A stretch of 64,000 nucleotides of DNA, taken from contig NZ_JQMP01000003.1 of assembly GCF_000744775.1 (NCBI RefSeq), positions 310,001 to 374,000 of the forward strand, in the 5' to 3' direction. The stretch is from Thermorudis peleae (GTDB lineage Bacteria > Chloroflexota > Chloroflexia > Thermomicrobiales > Thermomicrobiaceae). The notes beneath the pieces were generated by a model. The model was not told where the DNA came from and searched no databases. It saw only the letters and a list, made by a program, of their open reading frames with translations. Shown here piece after piece: positions 4,022 through 22,505 of this stretch (the first letter of the stretch is position 1; each line of letters starts with the position of its first letter). Made by a program: the position numbers and the translations under genes.

Positions 4022-5038
4022 ATGCCCACCGCGTTCGAGCGAATACAGGCAATAGTCGCCGGAGAACAGCTTGATCGTCCGCCGGTGAGTCTCTGGCGAC
4101 ACTTTCCGATTGTCGATCAGACGGCTGACGGTTTAGCTGCCGCAACACTCGCCTGGCAGCGTGCATTTGGCTTCGATCTCATCAAGCTTATGCCACCAGG
4201 GGATTACCCGACGATCGACTGGGGAGCGGAAAGTGTCTACCGTGGGAGTCCTGGCGGTACGCGGGAGACAACGCGCTTTCCTGTCACGACGCCAGAAGAT
4301 TGGGCACGGCTGGCGAGCGTGCCGGTCGATCGGGGCATGTTTCGTGTTGTTATCGAAGCAGCTCGGTTAGTTCGTGCAGCGATTGGCGACAGCGTCCCAA
4401 TCCTCCAGACGGTGTTCAGCCCGCTGACCGTTGCGGTGAAGCTCTCGGGTGGCCGTGTCTTTACCCACCTCCAGGAGCATCCTGACCTTGTCCGCCAAGG
4501 ACTTGAGACAATAACTGCAGTAACTCGGGCATTTGTTGCGGCGACGCTTGATCGTGGGGCACATGGCCTCTTCTTTGCGACACAATGCGCAACAGCCGAT
4601 GTCTTGTCCCGTGAAGCGTATGCGACATTCGGCGTGCCGTACGACCTCGCTGTTCTGGAGGCGGCAGCTGGCGCCTTTCCGGTGCTCCTCCACCTCCACG
4701 GCGCACAGCCGTTCCTTGATCTTGCTCGCGACTATCCTGTGCACATCGTGAATTGGCATGATCGGCGTGCTGGCCCGTCGCTTGCGGAGGGTGCGCAGCG
4801 AACTGGTCGCGCCGTTGCTGGCGGGATCGACGAGCGGGCGATCCTCTTCCTCCCGCCCACAGAGGCCGCTGCCCAAGCTCGTGACGCGGTCGCCCAGTGC
4901 GCCGGCCGTGGGCTGTTGGTTGCTCCTGGCTGTGTTATTCCGGTTGCTACCCCATGGGAAACCGTTCGCGCTGTCGTCACCGCCGTTCGCGGCAGAAACG
5001 ACGGCGAATTACTCCGCCACGACGCGGATAGTGTGTAA
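4022..5038 (+). CDS. uroporphyrinogen decarboxylase superfamily protein, not canonical HemE
   Basis: The chosen start is ATG 4022, seven bases after GTGGAGG, giving 338 residues; an in-frame GTG at 4007 lies inside that RBS. The fold is the URO-D TIM barrel, recognisable in HLHGAQPF, the metal-site-like segment, and the C-terminal GGIDERAILFLPP followed by LLVAPGCVIPVATPWE. The HemE signature RPPVWxMRQAGRY is replaced by RPPVSLWRHFPIVDQT, so this is one of the URO-D-like decarboxylase or corrinoid-methyltransferase relatives, of unknown substrate. Its last 30 bases overlap the end of the convergent decarboxylase gene. Confidence 0.8.
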   Translation: MPTAFERIQAIVAGEQLDRPPVSLWRHFPIVDQTADGLAAATLAWQRAFGFDLIKLMPPGDYPTIDWGAESVYRGSPGGTRETTRFPVTTPEDWARLASVPVDRGMFRVVIEAARLVRAAIGDSVPILQTVFSPLTVAVKLSGGRVFTHLQEHPDLVRQGLETITAVTRAFVAATLDRGAHGLFFATQCATADVLSREAYATFGVPYDLAVLEAAAGAFPVLLHLHGAQPFLDLARDYPVHIVNWHDRRAGPSLAEGAQRTGRAVAGGIDERAILFLPPTEAAAQARDAVAQCAGRGLLVAPGCVIPVATPWETVRAVVTAVRGRNDGELLRHDADSV

Positions 5039-6547
5039 GCGCGGATCGGCTGGCCCGCTGGCATACATGCCGGCGGCTCGGCCTGCTTCAAGATAGGCAA
5101 TCGCCTCAGCAGTAATCAGCTCTCCCGGTGCAATCACCGGAATTCCCGGTGGATACGGCGTGACCGGCTCAGCAGCGATTCGCCCGATTGCTTCGCTGAG
5201 CGGCACAGCGACACTTGGCGCGAAGAAGGCTTCGCGGGGAGTAAGTGCGGGTGGGCATGCCGTTAACACCGCGCCGGTCGAGCGGAACGCTGCGAATGCT
5301 GATGCCCTGGCTGACGATGCTGGCCCTTGAGCCCGTGCCCATTCGGCGAGTCCACGCATGCCGTCGACCAGACGGTCGATGGTTTCCTGAGTATCGCCAA
5401 GCGAAATCACAAACATCACGCTTACGAGATCGCTCATCTCCACGGCAACACCAAAGCGCTCGCGGAGGACGCGTTCAGCCTCGTATCCCGTGATGCCAAG
5501 TCCCTGCACATCCACCAGAATGCGCGTTGGATCAAACGCTGCTCCTGGGCGATCAGCAATCAGCTCCGGCCCGTGTACCCACAAACCACGGATCTGTGCT
5601 AAAGCAACCCGGGCCTCAGCCGCTAAAGCCAGCACTCGATCGAGCAGTTCTTGCCCCTCGAGAACCATACGTCGACGGGCTGCATCAATTGATGCGTACA
5701 AGAACGCCGCAGGACTGGTCGTCTGCACCAGTTCAACACAAGGTCCAAGGTGGGCTCGCGTCACGCGCTCGCCCCGGCAGAGCAGGAGCGCTGCCTGCGT
5801 AATCCCCCCGAGGAGCTTGTGAATACTCGTTACTGCTGCATCAGCCCCAGCCTGGACCGCTGGTGTTGGCAACGCTGGGTGAAACGCAAAGTGTGGTCCC
5901 CAGGCCTCGTCGACATACAGTGGTACGCCTGCCTGCTGGCAGATGGCAGCGATTGCTGGCAGATCACTTGCCACACCGGTATAGGTCGGGCTGACAAGCA
6001 TCACGGCTGTCGCGTCAGGATGCTCCGCCAGGGCTCTGGCGACGACCTCAGCTGGCATATCCAGCAAGAGGTTGGCTTCGGGGTGTAAGGCTGGTGTGAG
6101 GTAAACGGGCCGGGCGCCACTCAAAATGAGCCCGGCGAGCAACGATTTATGCAAGGCCCGTGTCACAATGAGCGGACGTCCTGGCCGAGCCAGGGCAAGC
6201 ATAGCCGCGACATTGCCGGTCGTGCTGCCGTTGACGAGGAAGAGAGCATCATCAGCACCCCATGCTTCAGCTGCTAACTGCTCGGCCTGCCGCAGTGTTT
6301 CCGCTGTGAGATGCGTGTCATCAACACCGCCGGCGTGCGGGATATCCAGCGCCAATGCCTGCGCCCCAAACACTTTGGTTAACTCTGGAGGCGCACCGCG
6401 TCCTTGCTTATGCCCAGGCACCGAAAACGAGACAAGCTGCTGCTCCTGGAATGCTTGCCAGGCGGTAAAGTATGGCGCCTCGACTTGTGCTCGCGTTGCT
6501 GCTCGTGCCACTGCGCCAGCTGTCCTCCCGTCACGCCCATGCCCCAT
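5009..6547 (-). CDS. Orn/Lys/Arg decarboxylase family PLP enzyme
   Basis: The protein has 512 residues and belongs to the short (about 480-510 residue) fold-type I group, like Bacillus SpeA/YaaO. Landmarks are SVPGHKQGRG near residue 40, VTSIHKLLGG near 230 whose Lys should carry PLP, and YVDEAWGPHFAFH for the cofactor-binding Asp. The C-terminal domain holds VTPYPPGIPVIAPGE. It would decarboxylate a basic amino acid for polyamine synthesis, with arginine likeliest but not provable. The N-terminus is uncertain: ATG 6547 has no clear RBS, and a GTG about 45 bases downstream follows GGGAGG. It is convergent with the URO-D-like gene, with 30 bases of overlap. Confidence 0.88.
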   Translation of the reverse strand: MGHGRDGRTAGAVARAATRAQVEAPYFTAWQAFQEQQLVSFSVPGHKQGRGAPPELTKVFGAQALALDIPHAGGVDDTHLTAETLRQAEQLAAEAWGADDALFLVNGSTTGNVAAMLALARPGRPLIVTRALHKSLLAGLILSGARPVYLTPALHPEANLLLDMPAEVVARALAEHPDATAVMLVSPTYTGVASDLPAIAAICQQAGVPLYVDEAWGPHFAFHPALPTPAVQAGADAAVTSIHKLLGGITQAALLLCRGERVTRAHLGPCVELVQTTSPAAFLYASIDAARRRMVLEGQELLDRVLALAAEARVALAQIRGLWVHGPELIADRPGAAFDPTRILVDVQGLGITGYEAERVLRERFGVAVEMSDLVSVMFVISLGDTQETIDRLVDGMRGLAEWARAQGPASSARASAFAAFRSTGAVLTACPPALTPREAFFAPSVAVPLSEAIGRIAAEPVTPYPPGIPVIAPGELITAEAIAYLEAGRAAGMYASGPADPRLHTIRVVAE

Positions 6548-18617: not shown

Positions 18618-18998
18618 CTACTCTGACCCGCGTTGGGCAGCCTGACGAGCGTGCTGCCAATACCATCGTCCCCTCAGGAGCACAACTGCCCAGATGAGGA
18701 GCATAGTGACAAGCCGGAGTAAGGATAGGTGCGTGGTAAGCTCTTGGGGAAGCGGGCCGGGCTGGAGTAGCCCTCGCAGACAAGCGATTCTTGCGGGACA
18801 AGCCAGAAGCAGGAATGACACTGTCCCGAAGACAAACCACCCCTCGACGAGAAACGTCAGCAGCAAGCGCCACCATGTCCGACGCGGCGCAGCTCGCACG
18901 TTACCCCAAAACGGTGTGCCAAACCAGAGTGAAAGGCCAAAGGTGAGCAGGCATTCACTGAAGACGATCAACCAGGCGAGACGCACGACGAACGCCAT
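18618..18998 (-). CDS. small membrane protein, paralogue of 19555-19941
   Basis: The protein has 126 residues, with ATG 18998 after GGAAAGGGG. There are four hydrophobic segments. It aligns along its whole length with the 128-residue protein at 19555-19941: VVRLAW-L-FSE-LL, RA-PRR--W-RL, WF, LL-C--R-AC, LL-PGPLP--LT, LRLV-ML. Two cysteines in LLACPARIAC are shared (LLDCSSRTAC in the paralogue). I recognise no family. It is the last gene of the minus-strand cluster that starts with a LuxR regulator and the Cys-rich precursor, so roles in export, immunity or modification are possible. It overlaps the preceding gene by 44 bases. Confidence 0.65.
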   Translation of the reverse strand: MAFVVRLAWLIVFSECLLTFGLSLWFGTPFWGNVRAAPRRTWWRLLLTFLVEGWFVFGTVSFLLLACPARIACLRGLLQPGPLPQELTTHLSLLRLVTMLLIWAVVLLRGRWYWQHARQAAQRGSE

Positions 18999-19338
18999 CG
19001 GCAGCCCCTTTCCAGGATCGGACCAGTGGTGAGACAGCCGGAATGACAGCCGTGCGAAGGAGCATCACGCTCTCGGATACACTCCAGAGCGTCAGGCAGA
19101 ACGTAAGAGAAACCAAAACCGGATCCGGTAAGGAGCCCCGCAAGATGGTGCGAAAAACAACATCGGGTGAGCCGAAGAACAGGAGTTGGGCGAAAAGGAG
19201 AAGTAACCAGAGGATACCGTCCAAACGGGCAAGTCCGGGAGGCTGTGAGGGCCACCAGCCAGTTACGAGCCGAACTATACTGAACGTTACGAGCAGCGCC
19301 ACATCGAAAAGCCAGAGCCGCGTAATCAGGAAGTCCAT
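18955..19338 (-). CDS. small membrane protein of the Cys-rich peptide cluster
   Basis: The protein has 127 residues from ATG 19338, seven bases after GGAG; ATG 19344 is too close to that RBS. Three or four hydrophobic helices (LWLFDVALLVTFSIVRLV, GILWLLLLFAQLLFF, LVSLTFCLTLWSVSESVML) are followed by a basic, soluble tail. No family is recognised. It lies between the two paralogous membrane proteins and overlaps both the next gene (44 bases) and the small ORF before it, so tight co-expression is likely. Confidence 0.6.
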   Translation of the reverse strand: MDFLITRLWLFDVALLVTFSIVRLVTGWWPSQPPGLARLDGILWLLLLFAQLLFFGSPDVVFRTILRGSLPDPVLVSLTFCLTLWSVSESVMLLRTAVIPAVSPLVRSWKGAADGVRRASRLVDRLQ

Positions 19339-19553
19339 ACCCATTCTCCGTTTGTGTCAGGTCGCGTCAAACGAAATTGTATAGCACTCTCTGCGCCGTA
19401 GTAACACTGAGGCGCACAGCAGCGAGTGGCGAGCAGGTAGGTCAACTGAGCCAGTACCGTTGGCTTTGGCCTGGTCGACAGCCGGGCTAGACGTGTACGC
19501 CAGGATTCAGAAGTCAGCCGAAGCTCTCTATCGTATGGTTCGTTGCTCGCCAT
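19326..19553 (-). CDS. possible small Cys-containing protein
   Basis: This 75-residue ORF starts at ATG 19553, one base after the stop of the 128-residue membrane gene, with GGGAG about nine bases upstream. It fills an otherwise empty 200-base gap and ends inside the next gene's start. The sequence is basic at the N-terminus and contains LLATRCCAPQCYYGAE with three close cysteines. There is no recognisable domain. Position and RBS argue for it; composition is not decisive. Confidence 0.4.
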   Translation of the reverse strand: MASNEPYDRELRLTSESWRTRLARLSTRPKPTVLAQLTYLLATRCCAPQCYYGAESAIQFRLTRPDTNGEWVWTS

Positions 19554-19554
19554 G

Positions 19555-19941
19555 TCACGTCGCTCCCTGGGCATCCTTCTGCAACGGAATTCGCCGGGCA
19601 CGCCGCCATATGAGCACGAGCAAGACCGCCACATATGCAAACAGCATAACGAGGCGAATAATGGCAGCGGTGCTGGTCAACAAGGGCGGTAGTGGTCCCG
19701 GATGGAGAAGGGCCAGGAAGCAGGCCGTCCGTGAAGAGCAATCGAGCAGGAGCCAGAAGATGCTGGAATACCCGAACCAAAGCATGAGGAGAAGAGTGGT
19801 GAGGCGTTGCCACACTTCCCGTCGCGGCAAGGCACGAGGGATAAACCGAGCCGGTTCCCTCCATTGAAAGAGCAAGAGATACGTCATCAGCAGATATTCG
19901 CTGAAGAGGAGTACCCATGCAAGCCGGACCACAAGCGACAT
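19555..19941 (-). CDS. small membrane protein, paralogue of 18618-18998
   Basis: The protein has 128 residues, with ATG 19941 eight bases after AAAGGAG. It has four predicted membrane helices and the paired cysteines LLDCSSRTAC in a loop followed by LLHPGPLPPLLT. The full-length similarity to the 18618-18998 product shows a duplication within the cluster. The function is unknown. Both paralogues begin with the same pattern of VVRLAW and FSE, so the N-terminal helix is conserved rather than a cleaved signal. Confidence 0.65.
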   Translation of the reverse strand: MSLVVRLAWVLLFSEYLLMTYLLLFQWREPARFIPRALPRREVWQRLTTLLLMLWFGYSSIFWLLLDCSSRTACFLALLHPGPLPPLLTSTAAIIRLVMLFAYVAVLLVLIWRRARRIPLQKDAQGAT

Positions 19942-19995: not shown

Positions 19996-20286
19996 TCACC
20001 GCCGATCGCTGGCACCCGGTCGCCAGCGCAACACTGCCTCGAACGCCAGGGTGAGCAGAAAGAGCACCAGGCTCCACGCCAGCGCCCGGCGCCAGGCGAA
20101 GGGTTCCAGGTGGCCGGTCTGCGTGACAGCGAGCAGGCTACCGAACAGCAGCGCCGTGCCGCCGATGAGGACGAGGGTACGCCAGGTCAGCGGGCGAGGA
20201 GGCTGGCGCTGGCTGACCAGGGCGTAGGCTAGGATGATTAGGAATGGGAAAGCGATCAGGAGCAGGTTCATGATGTTGCTGATCAT
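19996..20286 (-). CDS. three-helix membrane protein after the Cys-rich precursor
   Basis: The protein has 96 residues from ATG 20286, six bases after AAGGAG; GTG 20289 is in frame. Helices are IMNLLLIAFPFLIILAYAL, TLVLIGGTALLFGSLLAV and ALAWSLVLFLLTLAFEAVL, with a basic tail. There are no cysteines. It starts only about 20 bases after the precursor gene ends, so it is almost certainly co-transcribed. By analogy with peptide-toxin clusters it could be an immunity or export factor, but nothing in the sequence proves this. Confidence 0.65.
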   Translation of the reverse strand: MISNIMNLLLIAFPFLIILAYALVSQRQPPRPLTWRTLVLIGGTALLFGSLLAVTQTGHLEPFAWRRALAWSLVLFLLTLAFEAVLRWRPGASDRR

Positions 20287-20309
20287 CACTCACTCCTTTT
20301 CGTGTTCAC

Positions 20310-21299
20310 TTATGGGAGGCAAGATAGACAATTGCAACCGGCTGAAATAGAACATTCACTAGCTGCGGTAAGGCATGAACCAACGACCTCGGGGCAGCAA
20401 GCAAAGGCAAGCGGACTCCCTGTAACACAGCAAATGAAAATGCCAGCACAAAGTGCATCTAAGGCTATGCACGTCACACATACAGGACAACAAGTGTCCG
20501 CGACTGAGAGAACCGGTTCATCCACTTGTTGATGCTGAAGTAATAAGGCTAGTCCTTGGTTATGGATAGAAGTTGGTCGGTTGGTAGATACAATGCTTTC
20601 TCCTTTAGCATAGATAAGGATCATGCTATTTGCAGAATCCATTTTAGCAGCGTATGGTTTTAGTCCATTAATAGTAACTACCACGCTTTGGCCAAGCTTG
20701 TCTCTGATGATTGCTCCTGAGTAGGTTTGCTGTTTGATCGAAGTTGAAAAAGCCCAGCCGTGATCAGGGATCCAATTCTCTTCACGCCTAAGCCAATTAA
20801 CAATTGTGGATGTCTCGTGACTCTGTGCCTGAAGATAACTCTTTATAGACTGCAAGGCGGTAAAAGAATTCACCTCAATATTACTCTTCGTCGCTCGTGC
20901 GCTGCGCGGCAGTGAAAGGCTACCACTGAGCAGCACGTTTGCGGCGAGGGCCATGCCACCCAGCTGGCGCAACACTGCCCGCCGACTCCCTCGCCAGCCC
21001 CCTGATGTCGCTGCCAGCTGACTCGCCAGGGTGAGTGCTCGCCCCGGGCCAAGGAGCCGGGCCAGTTGCCAGGCCATCTGCCTCCCGGTCCAGGCTTGCA
21101 CCTGATCCCCCGCAATTCGAAACAGGGTCGGCGTCCAGGGCGCATCTGGTCCCAGCGCCTGCACACGCCAGGCGGCTACCTCTGGTTCCCGCAGGCTGCG
21201 GACAGTGAGCCGGCCGTCGGCCAGGCGGGCGACTTCCGCCGCCAGTTGCGCACAGGTGGCACAGTCGCCGTCGAATCCAAGGATCCAGGTCGGTGCCAT
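20310..21299 (-). CDS. mosaic precursor: DCC thiol domain, Tat-like signal, Cys-rich halocin-C8-like tail
   Basis: The protein has 329 residues, with ATG 21299 seven bases after GAGG. Residues 1-95 look like a DCC (DUF393) thioredoxin-like domain with FDGDCATC (Cys13, Cys16). Residues 104-136 form a Tat-type signal, GSRRAVLRQLGGMALAANVL, ending near RSARA. Residues 137-265 are a globular region of unknown type. Residues 270-329 hold 14 cysteines in 60 residues (CCPVCVTC, LCAGIFICC, ACCPE, GCNCLSCLP). Tat signal, roughly 130-residue middle and Cys-rich tail is the layout of the haloarchaeal halocin-C8 precursor, whose middle is the immunity protein. The gene switches from very GC-rich to AT-rich near 20885, exactly after the signal, suggesting an acquired 3' module. 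Confidence 0.7.
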   Translation of the reverse strand: MAPTWILGFDGDCATCAQLAAEVARLADGRLTVRSLREPEVAAWRVQALGPDAPWTPTLFRIAGDQVQAWTGRQMAWQLARLLGPGRALTLASQLAATSGGWRGSRRAVLRQLGGMALAANVLLSGSLSLPRSARATKSNIEVNSFTALQSIKSYLQAQSHETSTIVNWLRREENWIPDHGWAFSTSIKQQTYSGAIIRDKLGQSVVVTINGLKPYAAKMDSANSMILIYAKGESIVSTNRPTSIHNQGLALLLQHQQVDEPVLSVADTCCPVCVTCIALDALCAGIFICCVTGSPLAFACCPEVVGSCLTAASECSISAGCNCLSCLP

Positions 21300-21423: not shown

Positions 21424-22110
21424 TCACCGGTGCAGGAGTCCTCGCGCTCGAGCGGCGTCGACAACTGCCCTGCGGGTTGGAGGCACACCGAGCTTAGCGG
21501 CAAGTCGGCGCACGTGCGTGCGGACCGTGTGACGCGAGCAGAAGAGTTGCTGGGCGATGGTGGCGTAGTCAAGGGTGGCGTCGGCCAGTAAGGGCAGGAT
21601 TTCCTGTTCCCGGGCACTCAGCAGCGGCGTCGGTCGACTGATGCGGTCCCGAGCCAGCGGGAACAGGACATCGGCGAGTGCCTGACTGATCATGACAAGG
21701 CGGGGGTTGCTACAGAGCAGGGCGCAGTAGAGGGAGAGCGCCTCGCCCGTCAGCTCGTGCCAGAGGAAGTAGCCGGTGATGGCGAGTGCTGGATCGAGCC
21801 ACGGGGCAAGAAAGGTCAGATCGGCATACCGAGCAAGGGCGAGGGCCGAGCACTGGTCAGCGGGACAAGGTCCCTGGCGGAGCGCTCGCAGGATCGCTGC
21901 AGTATGCGCGGCATCACGCGTAGCGCTGAGAATCAGCAACTGGGGACGTTCTTGGCGAGCAGTTGCCTCAGCTGCTGCCTGGGAGGCCGCATCGCCAATG
22001 AGCCGTACGGCCTGGCTGGCTGCCAGCAGCGCACAGATGGCGTCCTGGTCGGCTGGAGCAGCATCGTGGATCAGGAGGGTGGGGACTGGCTCGAGTGGCA
22101 TGATCGCCAT
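21424..22110 (-). CDS. LuxR-type transcription regulator with degenerate receiver
   Basis: ATG 22110 follows GAAGG at five bases and gives 228 residues; the longer frame to 22221 has no RBS. The C-terminal 65 residues are a LuxR/GerE HTH (LLSAREQEILPLLADAT, then TIAQQLFCSRHTVRTHVRRL). The N-terminal part is laid out like a response-regulator receiver (TLLIHDAAPADQDAICALL). The expected phospho-Asp strand reads PQLLILSATRD, so the Asp is replaced by Ser and phosphorylation is unlikely. Residues about 100-160 are unusually rich in Leu/Ala and could bind a ligand. It lies immediately upstream of, and on the same strand as, the Cys-rich peptide cluster, so it is the obvious candidate regulator. 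Confidence 0.8.
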   Translation of the reverse strand: MAIMPLEPVPTLLIHDAAPADQDAICALLAASQAVRLIGDAASQAAAEATARQERPQLLILSATRDAAHTAAILRALRQGPCPADQCSALALARYADLTFLAPWLDPALAITGYFLWHELTGEALSLYCALLCSNPRLVMISQALADVLFPLARDRISRPTPLLSAREQEILPLLADATLDYATIAQQLFCSRHTVRTHVRRLAAKLGVPPTRRAVVDAARARGLLHR

Positions 22111-22505
22111 GCGTGCCTTCAACCGTTCTCCTAGGCCCCTCGGAGACGAATGAAGTATTTGGCTCTGACTATCTCCGGGGGCCATAAAAAGGATAGCTGG
22201 GGTTGCGGCACCTGGCAACAAGTCAATTTGGTAAGGGAAACCATCGGGAAGCCACCCGGAAGGGCAAGCCGATGGGCATAAGCTCGAGCGGGAGTAAACG
22301 GCACAGTTCGGCTACCGCACAGTGCGGCAGATGCGTATCCCAGCATGGATTCGCTGGATACGATCGCACCATGCCTTCAGCGTGGGCTGTTTGTGGAGCT
22401 CGTCACGTGGGCAGGCTCGCCGGATGCGATCGTATCGCGCATTCGTGAACCAGAGGTCGGAACCTCTGGTGTGCAGGCCAGGATGACGGTTTTCCAGCGA
22501 ATGAT
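22111..22505. other. 395-bp intergenic region between metG and the LuxR gene
   Basis: No gene is supported. It contains a perfect 12-bp inverted repeat, GATACGATCGCA (22357-22368) and TGCGATCGTATC (22425-22436), with a 56-base spacer. A separate hairpin at 22449-22470 lies behind metG. The LuxR promoter should lie near 22120-22250 but no clear boxes were found. Confidence 0.5.
22449..22470 (-). terminator. hairpin after metG
   Basis: ACCAGAGGT and ACCTCTGGT form a perfect 9-bp stem with a 4-base loop, 36 bases past the metG stop on the minus strand. No T run follows. Confidence 0.5.

Follow-up and report, generated by a model that had tools for sequence, protein, structure and literature searches.

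The window analysed here, a 64,000-nucleotide stretch of the Thermorudis peleae genome, contains at 20310..21299 on the minus strand a gene encoding a protein of 329 amino acids that consists of four parts: a DCC-like domain, a Tat-type signal, a middle domain and a cysteine-rich tail. The frame begins with ATG and continues uninterrupted for 329 codons, and the 2.93 Mb genome contains no second copy of the gene. Residues 1-98 (21006..21299, minus strand) form a divergent DCC/thioredoxin-fold domain, as judged from the predicted structure, the folds retrieved from the PDB and a profile match; the motif FDGDCATC occupies residues 9-16, with the CxxC at 13-16. This domain is followed by an internal Tat-type signal, assigned from the sequence and from relatives (residues 101-136; 20892..20999, minus strand; SRRAVL at 105-110, SRRAVLR up to residue 111, and the AxA motif ARA at 134-136), by a middle domain for which an alpha/beta structure with a beta meander is predicted (residues 137-245; 20565..20891, minus strand), and by a hydrophobic tail of ~6 kDa (residues 269-329; 20313..20495, minus strand), the proposed active peptide. 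The first-pass annotation had described one reading frame that joins a thiol domain, a Tat-type signal, a middle part and a tail with 14 cysteines in 60 residues, and both the intact frame and the cysteine count are borne out: The last 60 residues contain 14 cysteines, and the other reading frames called by our script in the window reach at most 9 cysteines per 60 residues. No match to the precursor protein was obtained with Pfam, NCBIfam and PHROGs at E<=10, and none to the window with Rfam. In a scan for promoters and terminators, the signals were too close to those of shuffled controls to be usable.

The precursor gene is part of an array of genes on one strand. Upstream lies a co-directional gene for a LuxR/GerE-type regulator (21424..22221, minus strand) that is 38% identical to the response regulator encoded upstream of the Thermomicrobium roseum homologue. 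Downstream, a gene for a 97-aa protein with three transmembrane segments (19996..20289, minus strand) starts 20 bp after the precursor gene, the same position as in relatives, and three more genes for 3-TM proteins follow, encoding 128 (19555..19941), ~129 (18955..19344) and 126 amino acids (18618..18998, all minus strand); the first and the last of these three are paralogues (41% identity, E 4e-22). All transmembrane segments were counted with a simple hydropathy script. The order is the same in T. roseum, where a response regulator gene and the precursor gene are followed by five small hypothetical reading frames with one to three predicted transmembrane segments each. Small multi-TM proteins are also encoded 3' of the precursor in the genomes G001, G005, G009, G111, G112, G117 (at three loci), G400 and G472, and genes for ABC transporters are additionally present at the loci of G019, G112 and G341. 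In Chloroflexota, the precursor gene is thus usually flanked by a LuxR-type regulator on one side and by small 3-TM proteins on the other. By analogy, this may be read as the usual layout of a bacteriocin with its immunity functions, with the 3-TM proteins as candidate immunity proteins, and the adjacent 97-aa protein and its neighbours are better candidates for this role than the middle domain. No processing protease was identified adjoining the precursor gene of the window. A few genes upstream of the precursor, an S8 serine peptidase is encoded in T. roseum (L097, 624-2675) and in Rubrobacter radiotolerans (L095, 1534-2931); this enzyme could be a maturation protease.

Structure of the precursor protein

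An AlphaFold2 model of the full-length precursor, as suggested by the first-pass annotation, was built with 18 sequences and gave two confident domains: the N-terminal domain (residues 1-98, pLDDT mostly 86-97) and the middle domain (about 140-241, ~105 residues). The signal region (101-138) and the helices of the tail were predicted with low confidence. Comparison with the PDB returned thioredoxin, glutaredoxin, PDI and GST-N folds for residues 1-95; with Z values of at most 7.5, this establishes the fold class only. For the middle domain there was no convincing solved relative in the PDB, which in itself does not point to a new fold; the only matches were lipocalin-like, their rmsd was poor, and we do not believe them.

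The assignment of the N-terminal domain to the DCC family needs to be qualified. A profile of 16 modules matched a profile of genuine DCC proteins (PF04134) of the same order with a probability of 95% over the half that contains the CxxC motif, and this match and the thioredoxin fold support the assignment. However, although the precursor is the only place in the genome that is matched by PF04134, its score of 13.7 bits is below the gathering cut-off of 27.8 bits, as are the 17-18 bits of the best relatives. The domain is under constraint: Between the window protein and its G005 relative, the differences in the DCC part amount to 0.14, 0.20 and 0.51 at the three codon positions, and in close pairs they mostly concern the third base, which indicates purifying selection on this domain.

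Distribution and turnover of the DCC-Tat module

With the window protein as the query, relatives were found in its own family and order, among them those in G005, G001, G009 and G019, and the module of G112 retrieved T. roseum, Streptomyces, Rubrobacter and Hoyosella. Judged by this similarity of the modules from queries in both directions, the window protein is a member of a family of DCC-Tat precursors. A profile of the module found it in 16 of the 158 genomes of the class and in 13 of 400 genomes drawn from the phylum as a sample, with the matches in G013 and G018 being weak and either doubtful or remnants; some of the relatives stem from fragmented metagenome-assembled genomes. The hosts include T. 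roseum DSM 5159 (homologue WP_012642562.1), Candidatus Thermoflexus tengchongensis, a Thermoflexus sp., a Ktedonobacterales MAG and Bacterium HR08, and a genome may contain up to ten copies (six in G117, ten in G341). In plasmid records, the G112 module detected copies in Streptomyces and R. radiotolerans as well as a broken one in Hoyosella. The fusion of a DCC-like domain to a Tat-type signal is therefore widespread in Chloroflexota and Actinomycetota. It is not unique, and its recurrence in many relatives from two phyla also excludes an assembly error.

Many members of the family are broken. In-frame stop codons were detected within the module at eleven loci in the scans of the class and the phylum, and in G005 and G001 the frame is shifted ahead of the tail. 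This pattern suggests a rapid birth and death of the genes, and the many broken copies fit the rapid turnover of genes involved in conflicts.

Several loci show peculiarities of their own. Frameshifts and in-frame stops at differing sites as well as short remnants are present in L003 (G005), L004 and L013 (G001), L036, L037 and L039 (G117), and L048, L051 and L053 (G341). In L053 (1513-2364) and L055 (1483-2274; both G341, minus strand), shortened DCC modules run in frame into sequences that by eye resemble unrelated secreted metalloproteases; these may be recombination scars. In the Thermoflexus-type genomes G341 and G400, a DCC-Tat protein that has no Cys-rich tail is followed by a separate Cys-rich protein (L080, 12692-13249 and 13267-14247; also L047 and L052), which contains an HxH motif and, by eye, resembles a LytM/M23-type fold. 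Finally, Cys-rich reading frames with a similar middle part and no DCC-Tat module adjoin the DCC-Tat precursors in L014 (9758-10198; G009) and L011 (8-592, minus strand; G019); these are possibly spare cargoes or remnants.

Exchange of cargoes and the link to fulvocin C-related bacteriocins

The N-terminal module and the C-terminal part have separate histories. The window protein and its G005 relative share 67% identity in the N-module, whereas their C-parts are unrelated (Z -0.4). Conversely, the G019 protein is only 48% identical to the window protein in the N-module and has a homologous C-part (Z 27), and the N-modules of G019 and T. roseum are 78% identical while the C-parts are again unrelated (Z -0.6). 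The cargo of the window type is also present in G117 (full-length BLAST, E 4e-26) and G157, with ten cysteines that are invariant across four members; in other cargo tails, the pattern of cysteines differs. These comparisons show that DCC-Tat is a conserved unit that evolution has rejoined to unrelated Cys-rich cargoes, some of which are relatives of curated bacteriocins. The module thus looks like a reusable leader for folding and export.

The relationship to curated bacteriocins comes from the family model NF033852 (bacteriocin fulvocin C-related, cut-off 35 bits). It matches the DCC-Tat protein of the Chloroflexota genome G465 (107.9 bits, E 8.3e-31) and three DCC-Tat proteins of Streptomyces (93.7-105.6 bits, E 1.8e-26 to 4.2e-30). 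With the S. anulatus protein as the query, nine other Streptomyces plasmid records aligned over 99% of the length, the DCC domain included. The bacteriocin-like logic of the first-pass annotation has thus gained support, since the same front module carries a curated fulvocin C-related domain elsewhere. The window protein itself is not matched by NF033852 at the 35-bit cut-off, and no match was obtained in a sample of 301 Chloroflexota genomes, a search that carries no weight, since no control matched either and G465 may be outside the sample. As no family model matches the tail or the middle domain of the window protein, its label as a bacteriocin is an association via the leader.

The tail might accordingly be a secreted Cys-rich protein that serves in metal binding, surface redox chemistry or signalling rather than as an antimicrobial, with the small transmembrane proteins as unrelated neighbours; that no bacteriocin model recognizes the tail of the window protein agrees with this idea. 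However, the tail is hydrophobic, with a GRAVY value of 1.4 and only 3-4 charged residues, unlike metallothioneins, and relatives of curated bacteriocins are found behind the same leader. Moreover, the turnover of the cargoes, the frequent decay and the tandem paralogous genes for 3-TM proteins fit a conflict system. We therefore regard a function outside antagonism as unlikely, and the gene product is probably a secreted, cysteine-packed antibacterial peptide.

In Streptomyces sp. NBC_01224, the annotated fulvocin C-related coding sequence (L094, 5247-5951) is preceded by an open and conserved DCC region (5001-5255). The start of this coding sequence is close to the end of the DCC region, and the annotation therefore hides the DCC domain; other fulvocin C-related members may have been assigned wrong starts, too. 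An annotated start near the DCC end, just before the Tat signal, would also be expected if the DCC domain and the Tat-tail protein were made separately by means of an internal start and merely shared a reading frame, and the separate downstream gene for the Cys-rich part at some Thermoflexus-type loci points in the same direction. Yet the frame upstream of the Streptomyces start is open and conserved, both the frame and the spacing between the DCC domain and the twin arginines are preserved across highly diverged members, and cleavage by signal peptidase would separate the parts regardless. Separate synthesis is thus very unlikely. Our searches of the non-subscription literature on fulvocin and on DCC domains in combination with bacteriocins found no description of the fusion.

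Search for a relationship to halocin C8

The tail and the middle domain had initially been taken as related to halocin C8, and this proposal was not supported at the level of sequence. The model TIGR04449 (24-bit cut-off) gave no match to the precursor at E<=10 and none at E<=0.01 in the genome and 60 relatives, whereas the Haloferax volcanii control was matched. A comparison of profiles with tails and middle parts of haloarchaeal precursors yielded probabilities below 3%, no better than for reversed controls, and TIGR04450 likewise lent no support to homology. The comparison set consisted of three genuine haloarchaeal halocin C8 precursors, retrieved as annotated records with an approximate query that served no other purpose; TIGR04449 recognizes the one of them that was scanned. 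In two of the three, the RR signal is located at the annotated start, and the third coding sequence starts inside the signal. None of the three has a DCC domain, and a 68-residue hydrophobic protein is encoded 3' of two of them. We also rejected L042 and G111 as halocin C8-like (E 0.71 and 0.54, below the cut-off) and discarded weak hits to models named after toxins (MakA, 0.0085; Shiga B, 1.1) that were far below their cut-offs.

Export and the possible role of the redox domain

The genome encodes TatC (E 1.2e-60) and VKOR. None of the Tat models, TIGR01409 included, matches the window protein; the relatives in L042 and L033 reach the cut-off of TIGR01409. We assign the signal to the Tat type because of the twin arginines, the hydrophobic stretch and the AxA motif and because of these relatives. 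The N-terminus of a Tat signal remains on the cytoplasmic side, and a domain ahead of the twin arginines can therefore act on the cargo only prior to export. Tat generally exports folded proteins, and thiols in the cytoplasm are normally held in the reduced state; oxidation ahead of export would thus be required for a peptide that has up to seven disulfides. A precursor with a redox domain of its own would be a direct answer to this problem.

In the reading that we prefer, the precursor gives rise to a secreted, disulfide-rich bacteriocin-like peptide that is made as a fusion with a redox leader, of which the DCC domain would stay in the cytoplasm; we assign a probability of roughly 0.55 to this reading, in which the activity, the cleavage and the redox function are inferred. 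The many family members broken by stops or frameshifts and the low confidence of the modelled tail speak against it. The DCC domain would oxidize or shuffle the cysteines of the tail in the cytoplasm, while the middle domain, which we propose to be a propeptide or a chaperone, would keep the tail soluble. Tat would then export the folded middle and tail parts, and signal peptidase would cut near residue 136, so that the DCC domain would never exit the cytoplasm. Outside the cell, VKOR might contribute a later oxidation, and a protease would release a peptide of ~6-7 kDa with 14 cysteines. This peptide may attack close competitors at their membranes, and the producer would be protected by the 3-TM proteins.

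The N-terminal domain may act as a catalyst or as a recognition element. In the latter case, an enzyme-derived leader would bind a chaperone, a Tat docking partner or a modifying enzyme and would be removed together with the signal. There is precedent for enzyme-derived leaders on natural-product precursors: In the NHLP and N11P families, a domain derived from nitrile hydratase or Nif11 is the common N-terminal leader of variable core peptides; in the NHLP leaders, the catalytic residues are gone, Gly-Gly motifs for cleavage are present, and an ABC transport system is encoded in the same cluster (PMC2887384). The reuse of the DCC-Tat module on unrelated cargoes can be understood in the same way, as can the modules of G054 and G472 that have lost the CxxC motif and retained the layout. 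However, the CxxC motif is present in 27 of the 29 modules inspected, unlike in the NHLP leaders, which favours a catalytic role in the oxidation or isomerization of the cargo cysteines, and no RiPP modification enzyme was seen in the gene-flanking regions that were read, the reading frames of which were searched against families in part. A mere recognition leader is therefore doubtful. The two modules that lack the motif indicate that some members can do without redox chemistry or make use of another oxidant. For the catalytic role, we tentatively consider it possible that DCC-Tat is a self-contained, swappable leader for oxidation and export, i. e. a thiol oxidase that acts in cis, forms the disulfides of whichever Cys-rich bacteriocin follows it before this leaves the cytoplasm, hands the folded cargo to Tat and is left behind after cleavage. 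If this is true, it would represent a previously unrecognized route for the secretion of disulfide peptides that is common to Chloroflexota and Actinomycetota. The module also provides a search handle, with which many Cys-rich secreted peptides that lack an annotation are uncovered; they belong to several unrelated types. Thermophiles are among its hosts, and heat-stable antimicrobials would be expected there.

Relation to known systems

The DCC-Tat precursors share features with four known groups of proteins. (i) The fulvocin C-related members from Streptomyces plasmids and G465 that we examined start with the same DCC-like domain and Tat-type signal and continue with a middle part and a Cys-rich tail, whereas the middle and the tail of the window protein remain unmatched. 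NF033852 begins behind the Tat signal, and the DCC module is outside the curated model; the DCC part may have escaped attention for this reason. (ii) With the DCC1-like thiol-disulfide oxidoreductases (PF04134), the N-terminal domain has the DxxCxxC motif, the thioredoxin fold and profile similarity in common. However, it scores below the Pfam cut-off and aligns well only over the CxxC half, and it is fused to a Tat signal and a cargo, whereas the DCC1-like proteins stand alone. (iii) The precursor of halocin C8, ProC8, is a substrate of Tat export from which HalI and halocin C8 arise (PMC11509114). The window protein resembles it in layout, i. e. a Tat signal, a middle part of ~150-190 residues and a hydrophobic Cys-rich tail, and a small hydrophobic protein is encoded next door in two of the three haloarchaeal loci, as it is beside the precursor gene in the window; membership in this family at the level of sequence is not supported. 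Moreover, no DCC domain precedes the signal in haloarchaea, and the Tat-type signal is internal in our protein and N-terminal there. (iv) As in the NHLP and N11P families, a leader derived from an enzyme is combined with variable cargo, but the DCC-Tat leader has mostly kept its CxxC motif and relies on a Tat-type signal for export.
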